From contig JAQXQU010000101.1 of NCBI GenBank assembly GCA_029101345.1, forward strand, positions 1-64,000: 64,000 nucleotides of DNA, given 5' to 3'. Below, in pieces: positions 1 to 10,050 of the stretch (its first letter is position 1; every line of letters begins with the position of its first letter). This DNA comes from Erysipelotrichaceae bacterium. Its GTDB lineage: Bacteria > Bacillota_I > Bacilli_A > Erysipelotrichales > Erysipelotrichaceae. A program made the translations under genes and the position numbers. Below the pieces are notes generated by a model. It was not told the DNA's origin and made no database searches. It worked only from the letters and a program-made list of their open reading frames with translations.

Positions 1-24
1 TGATAAGATCCCTCTAAAGTAGAC
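1..24 (+). repeat. Left terminal inverted repeat of the IS3 element
   Basis: Starts TGAT and ends AGTAGAC. It matches the reverse complement of 1790-1813 at 18 of 24 positions without gaps, as expected for imperfect IS3-family termini. Confidence 0.7.
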
Positions 25-70
25 AACTAAAATAAATAAAGTTGTTTACAGAAAGGAGGGATCTTTTCTT

Positions 71-784
71 ATGGGAAGAAAGAGTAAATATACAATAGAA
101 GAAAAAGTTCAAGCAGTATCAGATTATAAAAACGGAAAACGAGGAGTAGCGCAAATATGCAACGATTTAAATATGAATCATTCAAATTTGGTTGATTGGA
201 TATCCATATATGATAAGTATGGAGAATCTGGATTTGTCTATAGAGATGGAAACAGATCCTATATTAAAGAATTCAAGGAAATGGTAGTTAGAGAATATTT
301 GAATGGCAATAGTTCCACAAGAGGCTTATGCATAAAATATGGAATTCCTTCTCATCAAACCTTGCTAAAATGGGTTAATAGTTATAATGGTCATGAAGAA
401 TTAAAGGACTATGATCCTAAGGGAGATGTCTACATGGCTAAAAGAAGAAAAACAACAATAGAAGAAAGAAATGAAATCGTACAGTACTGCCTGGAACACA
501 ATAAGGAATACAAGCTGGCTGCAGAACATTTCGATGTATCCTATGCTCAGGTATATCAATGGGTACAGAAGTACTTGAAATCAGGTGAAGATGGTCTCAT
601 CGATAACAGAGGCAAAAGAAAAGATGAATCTCAGCTGAGTGAACTGGAACGCCTCAGACGTGAAAATGAACGTTTGAAACGTCAGCTTGAGTTCAAAGAA
701 AGAGAGGAAATCATCTTAAAAAAATTGCAGGAAGTCGAAAGGAGGCGATATTCGCCAAAGGGAAACAGGAACCGGAGTATATAG
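71..784 (+). CDS. IS3-family transposase OrfA (HTH protein)
   Basis: This is the DNA-binding subunit of an IS3/IS150-type transposase, 237 aa. It carries consecutive helix-turn-helix repeats near residues 8-50, 60-100 and 130-175, which are thought to bind the terminal repeats. A charged leucine-zipper-like coiled coil follows at about 188-225. The start has a strong AAGGAGG ribosome binding site just upstream. The reading frame runs over an A7 tract near its end, and OrfB lies in the -1 frame, so OrfA is also expected to be made as the N-terminal part of an OrfAB fusion transposase. OrfA alone usually acts as a regulator in this family. Confidence 0.92.
   Translation: MGRKSKYTIEEKVQAVSDYKNGKRGVAQICNDLNMNHSNLVDWISIYDKYGESGFVYRDGNRSYIKEFKEMVVREYLNGNSSTRGLCIKYGIPSHQTLLKWVNSYNGHEELKDYDPKGDVYMAKRRKTTIEERNEIVQYCLEHNKEYKLAAEHFDVSYAQVYQWVQKYLKSGEDGLIDNRGKRKDESQLSELERLRRENERLKRQLEFKEREEIILKKLQEVERRRYSPKGNRNRSI
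718..724 (+). other. Programmed -1 ribosomal frameshift site (A_AAA_AAA)
   Basis: A run of seven A's sits in phase with orfA as TTA AAA AAA TTG. Slipping back one base on the two AAA codons moves ribosomes into the orfB frame (AAA ATT GCA). This is the classic IS3-family slippery heptamer. OrfB is open in that frame from here to 1734, and the residues encoded between 721 and 900 look like a normal OrfB N-terminus. Confidence 0.8.
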
Positions 785-1734
785 TTATCAAAGAACTTCA
801 CGAAGCGCATCAGTGGAGTATCAGCTGTTTATGCAAAGTTCTTGAACTTCCAAGATGCAGCTATTACAAGTGGTTAAATAGGAAAGAAACGAAAGAGGAA
901 TTGGAAAACCACGAGCTAGCACAACTGATTCTTGAGTATGATGAAAGATTCAATCACATTCTTGGTTACAGAAGAATGACAAGATGGATCAACAAATTGA
1001 ATTCAAAGCATTACAATCGGAAGAGAGTCAGAAGACTCATGAAACTTCTCGGGGTAAAATCCATCATTCGCAAGAAACGAGAAAAATATGAAAGCACAGC
1101 ACCTGAGATCTCGGCAGAGAATGTATTATCAAGAAACTTCAATGCGACAAAGCCAAACGAAAAATGGACAACGGATGTCACTGAATTCAAGGTGGCTGGA
1201 ACAAAACAGAAATTGTATTTGAGCGCTATTCTTGATCTATATGACCGAAGTGTGGTCTCTTATGAAATCAGCACAAGAAACGACAATAGCCTGGTATTCA
1301 GGACTTACGAAGAAGCAGTCAAGTCAAATCCAGGAGCTACACCTCTTCTCCACAGCGATCGAGGATTCCAATATACAAGCAAAGTATTTCAGACGAAACT
1401 GGGCAAGGCAGGCATAAGACAAAGCATGTCTCGCGTAGGAAGATGCATCGATAATGGACCTACTGAAGGATTCTGGGGAATCATCAAATCAGAGATGTAT
1501 TACTTGAAGAAATATGACTCTTTAGAAGAACTCAGAGAAGATATCATTCAATACATCCATTTCTACAATTACGAACGATTGCAGGAACGTTTTGATGATA
1601 GAACACCTATGGCTGTACGCATCGCTGCGTTAACTGCAGAGAACGTTGCTCAATATCCAATCAAGGAAAACAAGCGTATCCAAAAGTATTATGCTAATTT
1701 GAAATCCAAACAAGAACAATATTCTATAGCATAA
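721..1734 (+). CDS. IS3-family transposase OrfB (DDE integrase domain), read by -1 frameshift
   Basis: Catalytic half of the transposase. The frame is open from the slippery site. The segment between 721 and 900 encodes the family N-terminus (ending SYYKWLNRK), and the nearest possible separate start is a TTG at 901 with no good ribosome binding site, so production by frameshift fusion to OrfA is favoured. The integrase core has the DDE triad: Asp in the TTDVTEF stretch, Asp in LHSDRGFQY, and Glu in the DNGPTEGFWGIIKSE stretch. The C-terminal YERLQ region with RTPMA is typical of IS3 OrfB. The gene looks intact. Confidence 0.9.
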   Translation, partial: KIAGSRKEAIFAKGKQEPEYIVIKELHEAHQWSISCLCKVLELPRCSYYKWLNRKETKEELENHELAQLILEYDERFNHILGYRRMTRWINKLNSKHYNRKRVRRLMKLLGVKSIIRKKREKYESTAPEISAENVLSRNFNATKPNEKWTTDVTEFKVAGTKQKLYLSAILDLYDRSVVSYEISTRNDNSLVFRTYEEAVKSNPGATPLLHSDRGFQYTSKVFQTKLGKAGIRQSMSRVGRCIDNGPTEGFWGIIKSEMYYLKKYDSLEELREDIIQYIHFYNYERLQERFDDRTPMAVRIAALTAENVAQYPIKENKRIQKYYANLKSKQEQYSIA

Positions 1735-6992: not shown

Positions 6993-8036
6993 ATGATGAA
7001 ATGCAAAGGTTGTGGCGCTTTATTGCAAAATGAAGAGCCAGCAAAAGTCGGATATGTTTCAAAGCCTGGCCAGGAATACTGCCAGCGCTGTTTCAGATTA
7101 TCGCATTATGGCGATATTTCTTCTCTGCATACCGAAGCTGTCAATGATGAAATAGTCAAGGAAATCTATGGCAAATATGACCATCCATTGTTTGTTCTGA
7201 TAGTTGATGTCCTAGATGCCATCTATCTTTACGAGGATGATCTCTTGTCTATCTTCAAGGGAAGGGATGTTCTTCTATTGATCAACAAGATTGATCTGCT
7301 GCCTAGCAATATCAAGGATGATCGATTTGAAAGGCTTTTTGCTAAAATTGTATCCAAATGCACTAGCAAGGGTGCCAATATTGTTGATTGCCTTTTGACA
7401 TATAAGGATGATTACACTTTCAACGATTTTTTCCTAAGGACTCTTGATGCACTTGGCTATCAGAACATTGTCTTTGCTGGTCGGGCAAATGCCGGCAAAT
7501 CAACATTGCTCAATAAGCTCCTTGGAATGAATAATCTGACAACATCCATCTATCCAGGAACAACAATTAGTGATAATGTATTTGCATATGGCAAATATCA
7601 GTTTATTGATACACCGGGACTTAGCGATGGCAATTCATTGCTTTCCTATTTGCCTGAAGACAAAATCAAGCCTTTGATGATTGATCGGACAATTACTCCA
7701 ATGGTCTATCAGTTCTATGAACCACAGACCTATCTGCTGGATGGCATTTTCAAAATAGATGTCATGCCGGAAAAGAATGCATCAATCATTTTCTACATCA
7801 ACAACTCGCTGAAGATCCATCGCACCAGGACAGCAAATGTCAAACGCTATCTTGATAACAACAAGGATAGTTTTCTTCTTGATCTTTCACCGAAGAAGAC
7901 CTTCGAAGATAGGATAACGAATAGGAAAATGTATTATCTTAAGGGATTGGGACTATTCAAGATTGCTGGCCGCTGCAAGATCAGAATCAGCTATTATGCA
8001 AAACTAAGATTGTTTACAAATGAGGTATTATTATGA
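6993..8036 (+). CDS. yqeH: Ribosome-biogenesis GTPase YqeH
   Basis: Circularly permuted GTPase required for small-subunit assembly. The 347-aa protein opens with a zinc finger (CKGC at residues 3-6, then CQRC). The G motifs come in permuted order: NKIDLLP (G4) before GRANAGKSTLLN (G1/P-loop) and DTPGL (G3). The C-terminal domain probably binds RNA. I chose the ATG at 6993, one base after the parC stop, because it places the zinc finger at the N-terminus; an upstream in-frame ATG inside parC would add 13 unrelated residues. The cluster with yhbY, yqeK and rsfS is conserved in Bacillota, but the usual aroE and nadD genes are missing here. Confidence 0.93.
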   Translation: MMKCKGCGALLQNEEPAKVGYVSKPGQEYCQRCFRLSHYGDISSLHTEAVNDEIVKEIYGKYDHPLFVLIVDVLDAIYLYEDDLLSIFKGRDVLLLINKIDLLPSNIKDDRFERLFAKIVSKCTSKGANIVDCLLTYKDDYTFNDFFLRTLDALGYQNIVFAGRANAGKSTLLNKLLGMNNLTTSIYPGTTISDNVFAYGKYQFIDTPGLSDGNSLLSYLPEDKIKPLMIDRTITPMVYQFYEPQTYLLDGIFKIDVMPEKNASIIFYINNSLKIHRTRTANVKRYLDNNKDSFLLDLSPKKTFEDRITNRKMYYLKGLGLFKIAGRCKIRISYYAKLRLFTNEVLL

Positions 8037-8323
8037 AACTTGACGGCAAACAGAAAAGATTTCTGAGAGGACTGGCTTCAAAGGAAAAAGCTGTCTTTCA
8101 GATTGGCAAGGAAGGACTTAGCGACAATCTCTATAATGGCATCAGGACCTATCTTGATGCTCATGAACTGGCAAAGGTTTCAGTACTGAAGTCCTGTGAT
8201 CTTGATATGAATGAGATTGCGATTGAATTATCAGCTAGGACCAATTCAGAACTGGTCCAGATAATTGGCAAGACAGTTGTTCTTTATCGCCAATCCAAGG
8301 ACAGGATCATTGATCTTCCATGA
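8033..8323 (+). CDS. yhbY: CRM-domain RNA-binding protein YhbY (YqeI)
   Basis: Small 96-aa protein made of a single CRS1/YhbY (CRM) RNA-binding domain, which associates with pre-50S ribosomal particles. The family pattern is clear: L-x-G-K-Q-K-R-F-L-R-G-LA at the N-terminus and an IGKEGLS GxxG-like loop at about residues 26-32. It overlaps yqeH by 4 nt and has a GAGG ribosome binding site inside the yqeH end. It overlaps yqeK by 4 nt. The position between yqeH and yqeK is conserved. Confidence 0.93.
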   Translation: MKLDGKQKRFLRGLASKEKAVFQIGKEGLSDNLYNGIRTYLDAHELAKVSVLKSCDLDMNEIAIELSARTNSELVQIIGKTVVLYRQSKDRIIDLP

Positions 8324-9063
8324 TATTAATAACGGAAAAGCAGCTTCAGACCTTAAGAAAGATTTATCATCTTGACAAGAAGAAAACTTTTCTGGTCTAT
8401 GCAGATGACACAAGCCGAAAGTATTATGATAAATTGCTTAAGGACAATCCCTTTATCATCTTAAGTGATGATCATAATGCCATTAAGGGAGAAGAGCTGT
8501 CCTTTGACAGCTTCAGAAGCTTCCCTTCGACAATCAGAAGGCTATTGTTCCTGGATGATGATGCACTGAGCATAATGGTAGAAGCCATGATGTCAAAAAA
8601 GCGCTTTGAGCATTCGCTTTCAGTAGCAAAAACTTGCAAGATGCTGGCCAAATATCATCATGTTGATCAAAGAAAAGCTTATCTTGCTGGCTTATTGCAT
8701 GATGTCACCAAGGAATTGCCGGAAGAATTCCATGATTCATATTTACGCTATTATGATAAGGATAAGCTTTCCTATCCCTTGCCCATCAAGCATTCCTTTT
8801 CTGCTAGCTATTATCTCAAAGATAAGCTTGGCTTAAGTGATAGTGATGTCCTGCAAGCCATTTATAACCATACAATCTGTTCATCCAATGACCGTCTTTG
8901 CCGGATTATCTATATTGCAGATAAAAGGGAACCACTCAGGGGCATAGATGACGGAATAATGGAAACTGCCAAGAAGGACTTGCATGGTGCATATGAGAAA
9001 CTGCAACAGGATGTCAAAGCCTATTTGCAGAAAAGAGGTACAGATGGACACATTATTGAATAG
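8320..9063 (+). CDS. yqeK: HD-domain hydrolase YqeK with an N-terminal extension resembling degraded NadD
   Basis: The C-terminal part, from about residue 88, is a YqeK HD phosphohydrolase. It has FEHSLSVA, then the metal-binding HD in AGLLHDVTKEL, and a later IKHSFSASYYL and NHT. Family members hydrolyse diadenosine tetraphosphate to ADP. The first 85 residues are not part of normal YqeK. They read like the C-terminal half of a nicotinate-nucleotide adenylyltransferase: a KTFLVYADDTSRKYYDKLL stretch like the FIIGAD region, and SFPSTIRRL like the SSTxIR motif. The nucleotide-binding GTFDPxHxGH motif is absent, so it cannot be an active NadD. In related genomes nadD precedes yqeK. Start overlaps the yhbY stop by 4 nt. 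Confidence 0.85.
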   Translation: MILITEKQLQTLRKIYHLDKKKTFLVYADDTSRKYYDKLLKDNPFIILSDDHNAIKGEELSFDSFRSFPSTIRRLLFLDDDALSIMVEAMMSKKRFEHSLSVAKTCKMLAKYHHVDQRKAYLAGLLHDVTKELPEEFHDSYLRYYDKDKLSYPLPIKHSFSASYYLKDKLGLSDSDVLQAIYNHTICSSNDRLCRIIYIADKREPLRGIDDGIMETAKKDLHGAYEKLQQDVKAYLQKRGTDGHIIE

Positions 9064-9394
9064 AATTTTTCAGGCAGTTGATTACAAACAGGGTGATGAT
9101 ATAGTTATCATTGACTTAAGGGGCTTTAGTCCATTCGTTGACTATTTTCTTATTGCGACTGCTCGTAATGAACGTATGGCAGGAGCGATTGTGGATGAGA
9201 TTGAAAAAGTGGCAATTGAGAGTGGAGCTAAGGTCATTGGCATTGATAAATCCAAGGATTCTGGCTGGTTTTTGATTGATGCCGGTTCTGTTGTCTGCCA
9301 TTTGTTTACCAAGGAAAAAAGAGATTATTACAATCTGGAGGGCTTATGGAAGGATCTTCCACAAATAGAGATGCCAAAAACTACGAACTTTTAG
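9044..9394 (+). CDS. rsfS: Ribosomal silencing factor RsfS
   Basis: Binds L14 on the 50S subunit and blocks subunit joining when nutrients are low. The 116-aa length and core sequence (DIVIIDLRG, DYFLIATARNERMAGAI, then DSGWFLIDAGSVVCHLF) fit the RsfS/DUF143 family closely. I start it at 9044, which has an AGAGG ribosome binding site just upstream; the longer frame from 8984 would add 20 residues with no family match. It overlaps the yqeK end by 20 nt and the next gene by 49 nt, so all are translationally coupled. Confidence 0.94.
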   Translation: MDTLLNRIFQAVDYKQGDDIVIIDLRGFSPFVDYFLIATARNERMAGAIVDEIEKVAIESGAKVIGIDKSKDSGWFLIDAGSVVCHLFTKEKRDYYNLEGLWKDLPQIEMPKTTNF

Positions 9395-10050
9395 CCTATT
9401 ATTATGATTCCCTTTTATCAGATCGGGAGAGTTTTGGGTTGTGGCTGGCTTATATAGAAGAGAAGCCTTTTCGAACTGTTCTTGATCTAGGGGCAGGTTC
9501 AGCAATCATGGCTGCCATTTTGGCAAATAAGGGTTATGATGTTGTTGCTTCAGACATCTCAAGACAGATGAAGGAAGCTGCCACAAAGAACTTCAAGGGA
9601 GAATATCTGGTTCTCGATATGACAGATTATCACCTGGATAGGAAATTCGATCTTATTATCTGTCTTGTTGATTCCATTAACTATCTGCAGGAAGATGAAC
9701 TGGATTCCTTCTTCATATGTGCAAAGGAACATCTGAATCAGAATGGCCGTCTTCTCTTTGATATGCATCATCCCTGTCGCCTTGAAGAATTTGCCGATGA
9801 ATATCTCGAAGAAGGCCATATTGATGATATTGATTATCTATGGTCAATTGAATCTGACCCTTATGATAGGTTGATCAACACTCATTTCACTTTCTATACG
9901 CCTAATGGCATGGTCTTAGAAAACCATACCCAGCATGTCTTTGATTGTGAAATGATTCAGAATAAAATGGAAGAAGCTGGTTTTGCTGTTAGAATAATCG
10001 ACGATTTTGTCGAAGAAGAAAAGATATTAGTGATAGGAGAGAAAAGATGA
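9346..10050 (+). CDS. yqeM: SAM-dependent methyltransferase (YqeM-like)
   Basis: Class I methyltransferase of 234 aa, substrate unknown. The SAM-binding motif I is LDLGAGSAIMAAILA (about residue 46), followed by the acidic motif VVASDIS and the post-I region LVLDMTDYHL. It keeps the conserved N-terminal YDSLLSD of the family. A GGAGG ribosome binding site sits 6 nt before the ATG, inside rsfS, and confirms this start despite the 49-nt overlap. The gene occupies the position of B. subtilis yqeM, right after rsfS. It overlaps mtnN by 4 nt. Confidence 0.85.
   Translation: MEGSSTNRDAKNYELLAYYYDSLLSDRESFGLWLAYIEEKPFRTVLDLGAGSAIMAAILANKGYDVVASDISRQMKEAATKNFKGEYLVLDMTDYHLDRKFDLIICLVDSINYLQEDELDSFFICAKEHLNQNGRLLFDMHHPCRLEEFADEYLEEGHIDDIDYLWSIESDPYDRLINTHFTFYTPNGMVLENHTQHVFDCEMIQNKMEEAGFAVRIIDDFVEEEKILVIGEKR

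Follow-up and report, generated by a model that had tools for sequence, protein, structure and literature searches.

A YqeK hydrolase with a probable, worn remnant of NadD in an Erysipelotrichaceae bacterium

Introduction

What is the N-terminal extension of YqeK in an Erysipelotrichaceae genome that has no nadD beside yqeK, and where does such an organism encode its NadD? The question is raised by a yqeK gene in a stretch of 64,000 nucleotides (referred to here as the window), in which no nadD lies between yqeK and its upstream neighbour yhbY (8033..8323, + strand), the start codon of the one overlapping the stop codon of the other (ATGA at 8320-8323). YqeK is cited as a family of Ap4A hydrolases, and hydrolysis activity is known for relatives of the protein discussed here (PMC9426524). 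In most mycoplasmas YqeK is fused to NadD. In JCVI-Syn3A this YqeK domain acts as a hydrolase on 8-oxo-GTP and on NaAD analogues, and its breakdown of faulty NaAD analogues has been proposed as a form of proofreading (PMC9426524). An initial annotation of the window suggested that nadD had been fused to yqeK and had then lost its N-terminal half, so that the organism would need another NaMN adenylyltransferase.

An ordinary YqeK domain

The yqeK frame (8320..9063, + strand) encodes 247 residues, comprising a putative NadD-derived stub (residues 1-93) and the YqeK HD hydrolase domain (residues 94-239; 8599..9036, + strand), the latter identified by profile match, alignment, AF2 model and structure matches. 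TIGR00488, the YqeK profile, matches residues 88-239 with 101.9 bits (curated cut-off 70.15). NF005519, NCBIfam's model for NadD-YqeK fusions, covers residues 85-239 only (profile positions 187-344) and scores 113.7 bits, below its cut-off of 315. As these matches begin at residues 88 and 85, about 85-90 residues lie ahead of the HD domain, close to the 85 first reported. R95, H98, H127-D128, H158, H184 and D201 are invariant in a 26-sequence alignment, the domain is modelled by AF2 with a pLDDT of about 98, and its PDB relatives include 2ogi, 2o08 and 8wmy. Judged from its sequence, it is an ordinary YqeK with all catalytic residues present. The protein shares its fold and invariant HD residues with the stand-alone YqeK, a symmetrical Ap4A hydrolase (TIGR00488; PDB 2o08, 2ogi, 3ccg, 8wmy, 8jja), but adds the N-terminal stub.

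Two other reading frames of the window (23-1734) look, by eye, like the transposase of an insertion element. In one relative (G047, contig C1, L066) yqeK continues in frame into a methyltransferase-like domain (415 aa) that lies downstream and is similar to the window frame at 9346-10050.

Anatomy of the extension

Three segments can be recognised in the extension. Residues 1-50 (8320..8469, + strand) appear to be a worn NadD N-terminal half, on the evidence of alignment, HMM shuffles and AF2, with the choice of half inferred from relatives. Residues 51-60 (8470..8499, + strand) form a low-confidence linker in the AF2 model and fall at an alignment gap, where the middle and C-terminal half of NadD would be missing. 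Residues 61-93 (8500..8598, + strand) correspond to the NadD C-terminal helices (SFDSFRSFPSTIRRLLFLDDDALSIMVEAMMSK), contiguous with the HD domain, as indicated by a spacing test, genus sequences and AF2; this is the part of NadD still present in most congeners. The two stretches singled out in the initial annotation are FLVYADDTSRKYYDKLL (residues 24-40) and SFPSTIRRL (residues 67-75). Residues 2-5 (ILIT) stand in place of the FDPxH loop and NadD strand 1 is absent; MAFFT sets ILITEKQL under FDPxHxGHL and FLVY under NadD strand 2. From an input alignment that contained no intact NadD, AF2 predicts a helix (6-18), strand (24-27), helix (33-42) and strand (46-49) with pLDDT 68-76, drops below 50 at residues 54-57, and resumes with helices at 70-78 and 80-88.

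Direct searches with the window protein return little of NadD. The GTFDPxHxGH motif is absent, as had been noted, and so is an SSTxIR motif 33-35 residues before the HD arginine. A Pfam scan gives no CTP_transf_like match and nothing relevant on residues 1-91, and an NCBIfam scan gives no NadD match within the extension. An hmmsearch with the intact NadD N-half finds no significant match to residues 1-58, hhalign restricted to the window clade gives a probability of about 2 with NadD, Foldseek with the window model gives significant E-values for HD proteins only, and a scan of genome contigs with the window protein as sole query found no relative.

Intact fusions and remnants across the family

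Within a sample of 58 genomes of the family, 37 encode an intact NadD-YqeK fusion (in G014 it spans two contigs), YqeK is shortened in 18, and three give no yqeK match. In the sister family, open frames are about 365-394 aa long in the members with frames listed; two of these members were checked and carry NadD, and five members of the family served as an intact outgroup. Among relatives that have names, Erysipelotrichaceae MAGs predominate, and many of these come from ruminant guts. The window protein has the same domain order, YqeK HD domain and joining C-terminal NadD helices as the known fusion (NF005519/PRK07152; JCVISYN3A_0380 of Mycoplasma JCVI-Syn3A, PMC9426524), but lacks HxGH and SSTxIR and has about 90 rather than about 190 residues before the HD domain.

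The shortened proteins form a ladder of intermediates, with about 116-128 residues before the HD domain in G053, G026, G279 and G046, about 104-115 in G057, G171, G198 and G033, and 93 in the window. Most other members of the window genus are far shorter, their frames beginning with a sequence resembling MNFDDLNFDHFMSLPSKIRR, near residues 55-60 in the numbering of the window protein, and in G037, G045 and G047 residues 1-50 are wholly lost. Remnants from outside the window clade are homologous to NadD (hhalign against intact NadD, probability 99.8, E 1.6e-27), and their alignment consists of a degenerate N-half, a gap over SYTIDT..IGADQ..SS, and then xIRxG with the C-terminal helices. None of the 31 remnants examined retains the first histidine of HxGH, six keep the second, and FDP[ILV][TS] is common. 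The AF2 model of the Solobacterium sp. RGIG5699 remnant (L294) has a pLDDT of 93.6 and a pTM of 0.89, from an input alignment that included intact fusions and is thus not independent, with strands at 3-9, 33-38 and 72-78 and helices at 16-28 and 46-56. Foldseek matches this model to NadD structures (probability 1.00, E 0.005 or worse, ranked below the YqeK ones), with the local alignments covering 65-79 columns, so that the extension of a relative, at least, is predicted to fold like NadD. Compared with stand-alone NadD (TIGR00482; PDB 1kam, 3dv2, 5db4), the window stub would be of NadD descent, and the stub of a relative folds like part of it in the model, but the catalytic motif and about half of the domain are missing.

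That nadD was fused to yqeK and that the NadD part then decayed is thus borne out by the intact fusions, the shortened proteins and the ladder between them. The LepA tree calls for 7 changes of fusion state (bootstrap 5-7, two forced by supported branches) and the HD tree for 10 (9-11, two forced), and repeated decay of the fused NadD in the family is likely. A single loss of the fused NadD, with later regain by transfer, is the less likely course, but just two of the changes that the trees need are forced. Two genomes rated as 98-99% complete (G016, G056) have no match to yqeK, NadD, NadE or the near-universal CTP_transf_like; their sequence may be unusual.

Selection on the stub

In pairs of related genomes, none including that of the window, dN/dS of the remnant is 0.08-0.24, or 0.35 in the fast pair G057/G171, compared with 0.02-0.16 for the HD part, with dS near saturation in several pairs and not computable in one. 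Because of these values (0.08-0.35), the remnants of relatives appear constrained, in most cases more loosely than the HD domain. Purifying selection in relatives, together with one confident prediction of a half-NadD fold, makes a structural role within YqeK a possible reason for the stub's retention. That it can be lost is evident in the window genus. Tentatively, and with some doubt on our part, the Erysipelotrichaceae could be keeping a dead half-NadD under selection as a pseudoenzyme domain of YqeK after repeated NadD replacement, still with a job such as stability, dimerisation or docking to the new NadD for proofreading.

A rival on function, rather than on origin, is that the stub is NadD-derived but neutral debris under removal, with no role, which we consider rather unlikely. 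The loss of residues 1-50 from most congeners and from the three genomes named above is in keeping with debris, as is the low AF2 confidence of the window stub (68-76). However, in relatives, if not in the window's own stub, frames are open across genera, dN/dS is low and the L294 fold is confident.

The probable NadD half at the N-terminus

The initial annotation equated the first of its two stretches with FIIGAD and SFPSTIRRL with SSTxIR, and concluded that the N-terminal half of NadD had been lost. The two equations prove wrong, and the conclusion is not supported. Arg73 of STIRR sits 22 residues before Arg95 of the HD domain, the position of LPxxV(R/L)xYI in intact fusions, whereas the arginine of SSTxIR lies 33-35 residues before the HD arginine in 35 intact fusions. 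By this spacing, FLVYADD most likely corresponds to NadD strand 2 (VWFLP) and not to FIIGAD. Moreover, the remnants of relatives keep a degenerate N-half and the C-terminal helices, and lack FIIGAD and SST.

That the extension is real is indicated by residues 1-58, which outscore all 1000 shuffles against the remnant of G018 (a sister genus), 999 of them against six near remnants, and 997 when the profile is built from remnants that lie outside the window clade. In the remnant profile matches, ITEKQLQTLRKI aligns to the segment directly after FDP. When G018 is left out, a profile built from the other five near remnants fails to detect the window (188 of 1000 shuffles score as high), and a profile of the window genome (G000) and G018 scores remnants and NadD C-halves alike (p 0.19). 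Against intact NadD itself, 569 of 1000 shuffles score as high with the N-half. Since such statistics do not separate the halves, the assignment to the N-half rests on the remnants of relatives. The window clade comprises 10 taxa on the LepA tree (96/88) and 11 on the HD tree (97/99). Its members G057, G171, G198, G217, G235 and G033 (the last on the LepA tree only) are all already without the NadD C-half, and G057 matches the intact N-half itself (0 of 1000 shuffles as high). We therefore think it very probable that residues 1-50 of the window YqeK stem from NadD's N-terminal half and that the middle and C-terminal half were lost.

The opposite assignment, in which the N-half was deleted and residues 1-75 are the C-half with FLVYADD as FIIGAD and STIRR as SSTxIR, is improbable. 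FLVYADD..DKLLKDNPFIILSDD does resemble FxxxIGADQ..LLxxxxFIVxxR, residues 1-58 show a weak match to the intact C-half (993 of 1000 shuffles score lower, 7 as high), and a single-sequence hhalign picked template positions 112-193 with a probability of 49, tail included. However, the automatic C-half alignments adopt a register unlike that of the initial annotation, with FLVY under strand 5 rather than FIIGAD, the spacing of STIRR fits LPxxVR, and the better-kept remnants, including the six just named, already lack the C-half. Less probable still is that residues 1-50 did not come from NadD and are instead a newly arisen short alpha/beta segment, or intergenic DNA that became translated, replacing a stub lost in congeners: the congeners examined have no counterpart, leaving the window nearly alone, and a direct comparison with the intact N-half gives no significant match, but the same extension occurs in another genus (G018, 0 of 1000 shuffles as high), remnants from outside the clade match it (3 of 1000 as high), and its place is unchanged, after the yhbY stop and ahead of the NadD C-terminal helices. 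Matches of residues 9-50 upstream of the yqeK of congeners were discarded, as they cross stops; they were read as out-of-frame yhbY sequence.

A stand-alone NadD elsewhere in the genome

The expectation that the organism would have another NaMN adenylyltransferase was confirmed by a genome search, which found a complete NadD of 190 aa elsewhere in the window genome (G000:C162), beside nadE and pncB. It scores 113.4 bits against TIGR00482, just above the cut-off of 112.45, and its motifs are intact (GSFAPVHLGH, LLIGGDN and SSSYIR, as ISSSYIR). A homologue of this nadD is found in 31 of 36 genus members, the window genome included, with two weak matches (E 4e-17 and 7e-13), and nadE and/or pncB adjoins it in 29 of the 30 genus loci examined, the exception being G058. 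One of the weak matches (G058:C61) lies just upstream of a divergent yqeK; the contig is probably foreign, and the genome has 6% contamination. Among genomes with the extension, none was seen to carry an intact nadD beside yqeK.

Across the family, a separate nadD occurs in 14 of the 18 remnant genomes and in none of the 37 with an intact fusion (Fisher p 7e-10, in a test that ignores kinship). Phylogenetic pairs of remnant and separate nadD number two on supported branches and seven on the best tree, none contradictory, and because they are so few the sign test is not significant. In the NadD tree the fused and stand-alone domains separate completely (27 and 27, support 100/99), which rules out that the stand-alone NadD was copied from the fused domain.

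The four remnant genomes without nadD (G004, G019, G047, G057) lack a nadE match above the cut-off too, G004 having a short 42-bit nadE match in a 52-residue frame. G171 likewise combines a short or remnant YqeK with the lack of any nadD or nadE match above the cut-off. The NAD supply of these five may come from import or other salvage. In G053, whose NadD-YqeK is decayed, an 859-residue frame (contig C20, L094 2999-5576) has both NadD and NadE matches and is a possible NadD-NadE fusion.

Proposed history and significance

Taken together, the best explanation, which we regard as probable by a good margin, is that the window yqeK descends from a NadD-YqeK fusion whose NadD was worn to a non-catalytic stub after a stand-alone NadD took over. 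A bifunctional fusion was probably ancestral in the order, as represented by Erysipelotrichaceae MAGs and the sister family. The window lineage would then have become dependent on another NadD, a stand-alone enzyme from a different NadD lineage whose gene lies with pncB and nadE. Next, the fused domain would have lost catalysis, with the HxGH motif and the middle and C-terminal half bearing FIIGAD and SSTxIR, and in the window species strand 1 as well. What is left would be the helix-strand-helix-strand of the N-half and the last NadD helices on the YqeK domain, presumably non-catalytic and now at most a structural part of YqeK.

The case is clearly one of enzyme replacement that leaves a fossil domain, and not a new system. 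The NadD-YqeK fusion is already known; what is new here is its decayed form, and a literature search, mainly outside subscription journals, found no description of degenerate NadD-YqeK fusions. For those annotating genomes, a nadD missing from the yhbY-yqeK locus does not mean that the NAD pathway is missing. In this family the partnership of NadD and YqeK has been dissolved, probably several times, with YqeK surviving alongside a fossil of its partner, and these genomes offer natural test cases of whether YqeK needs physical contact with NadD.
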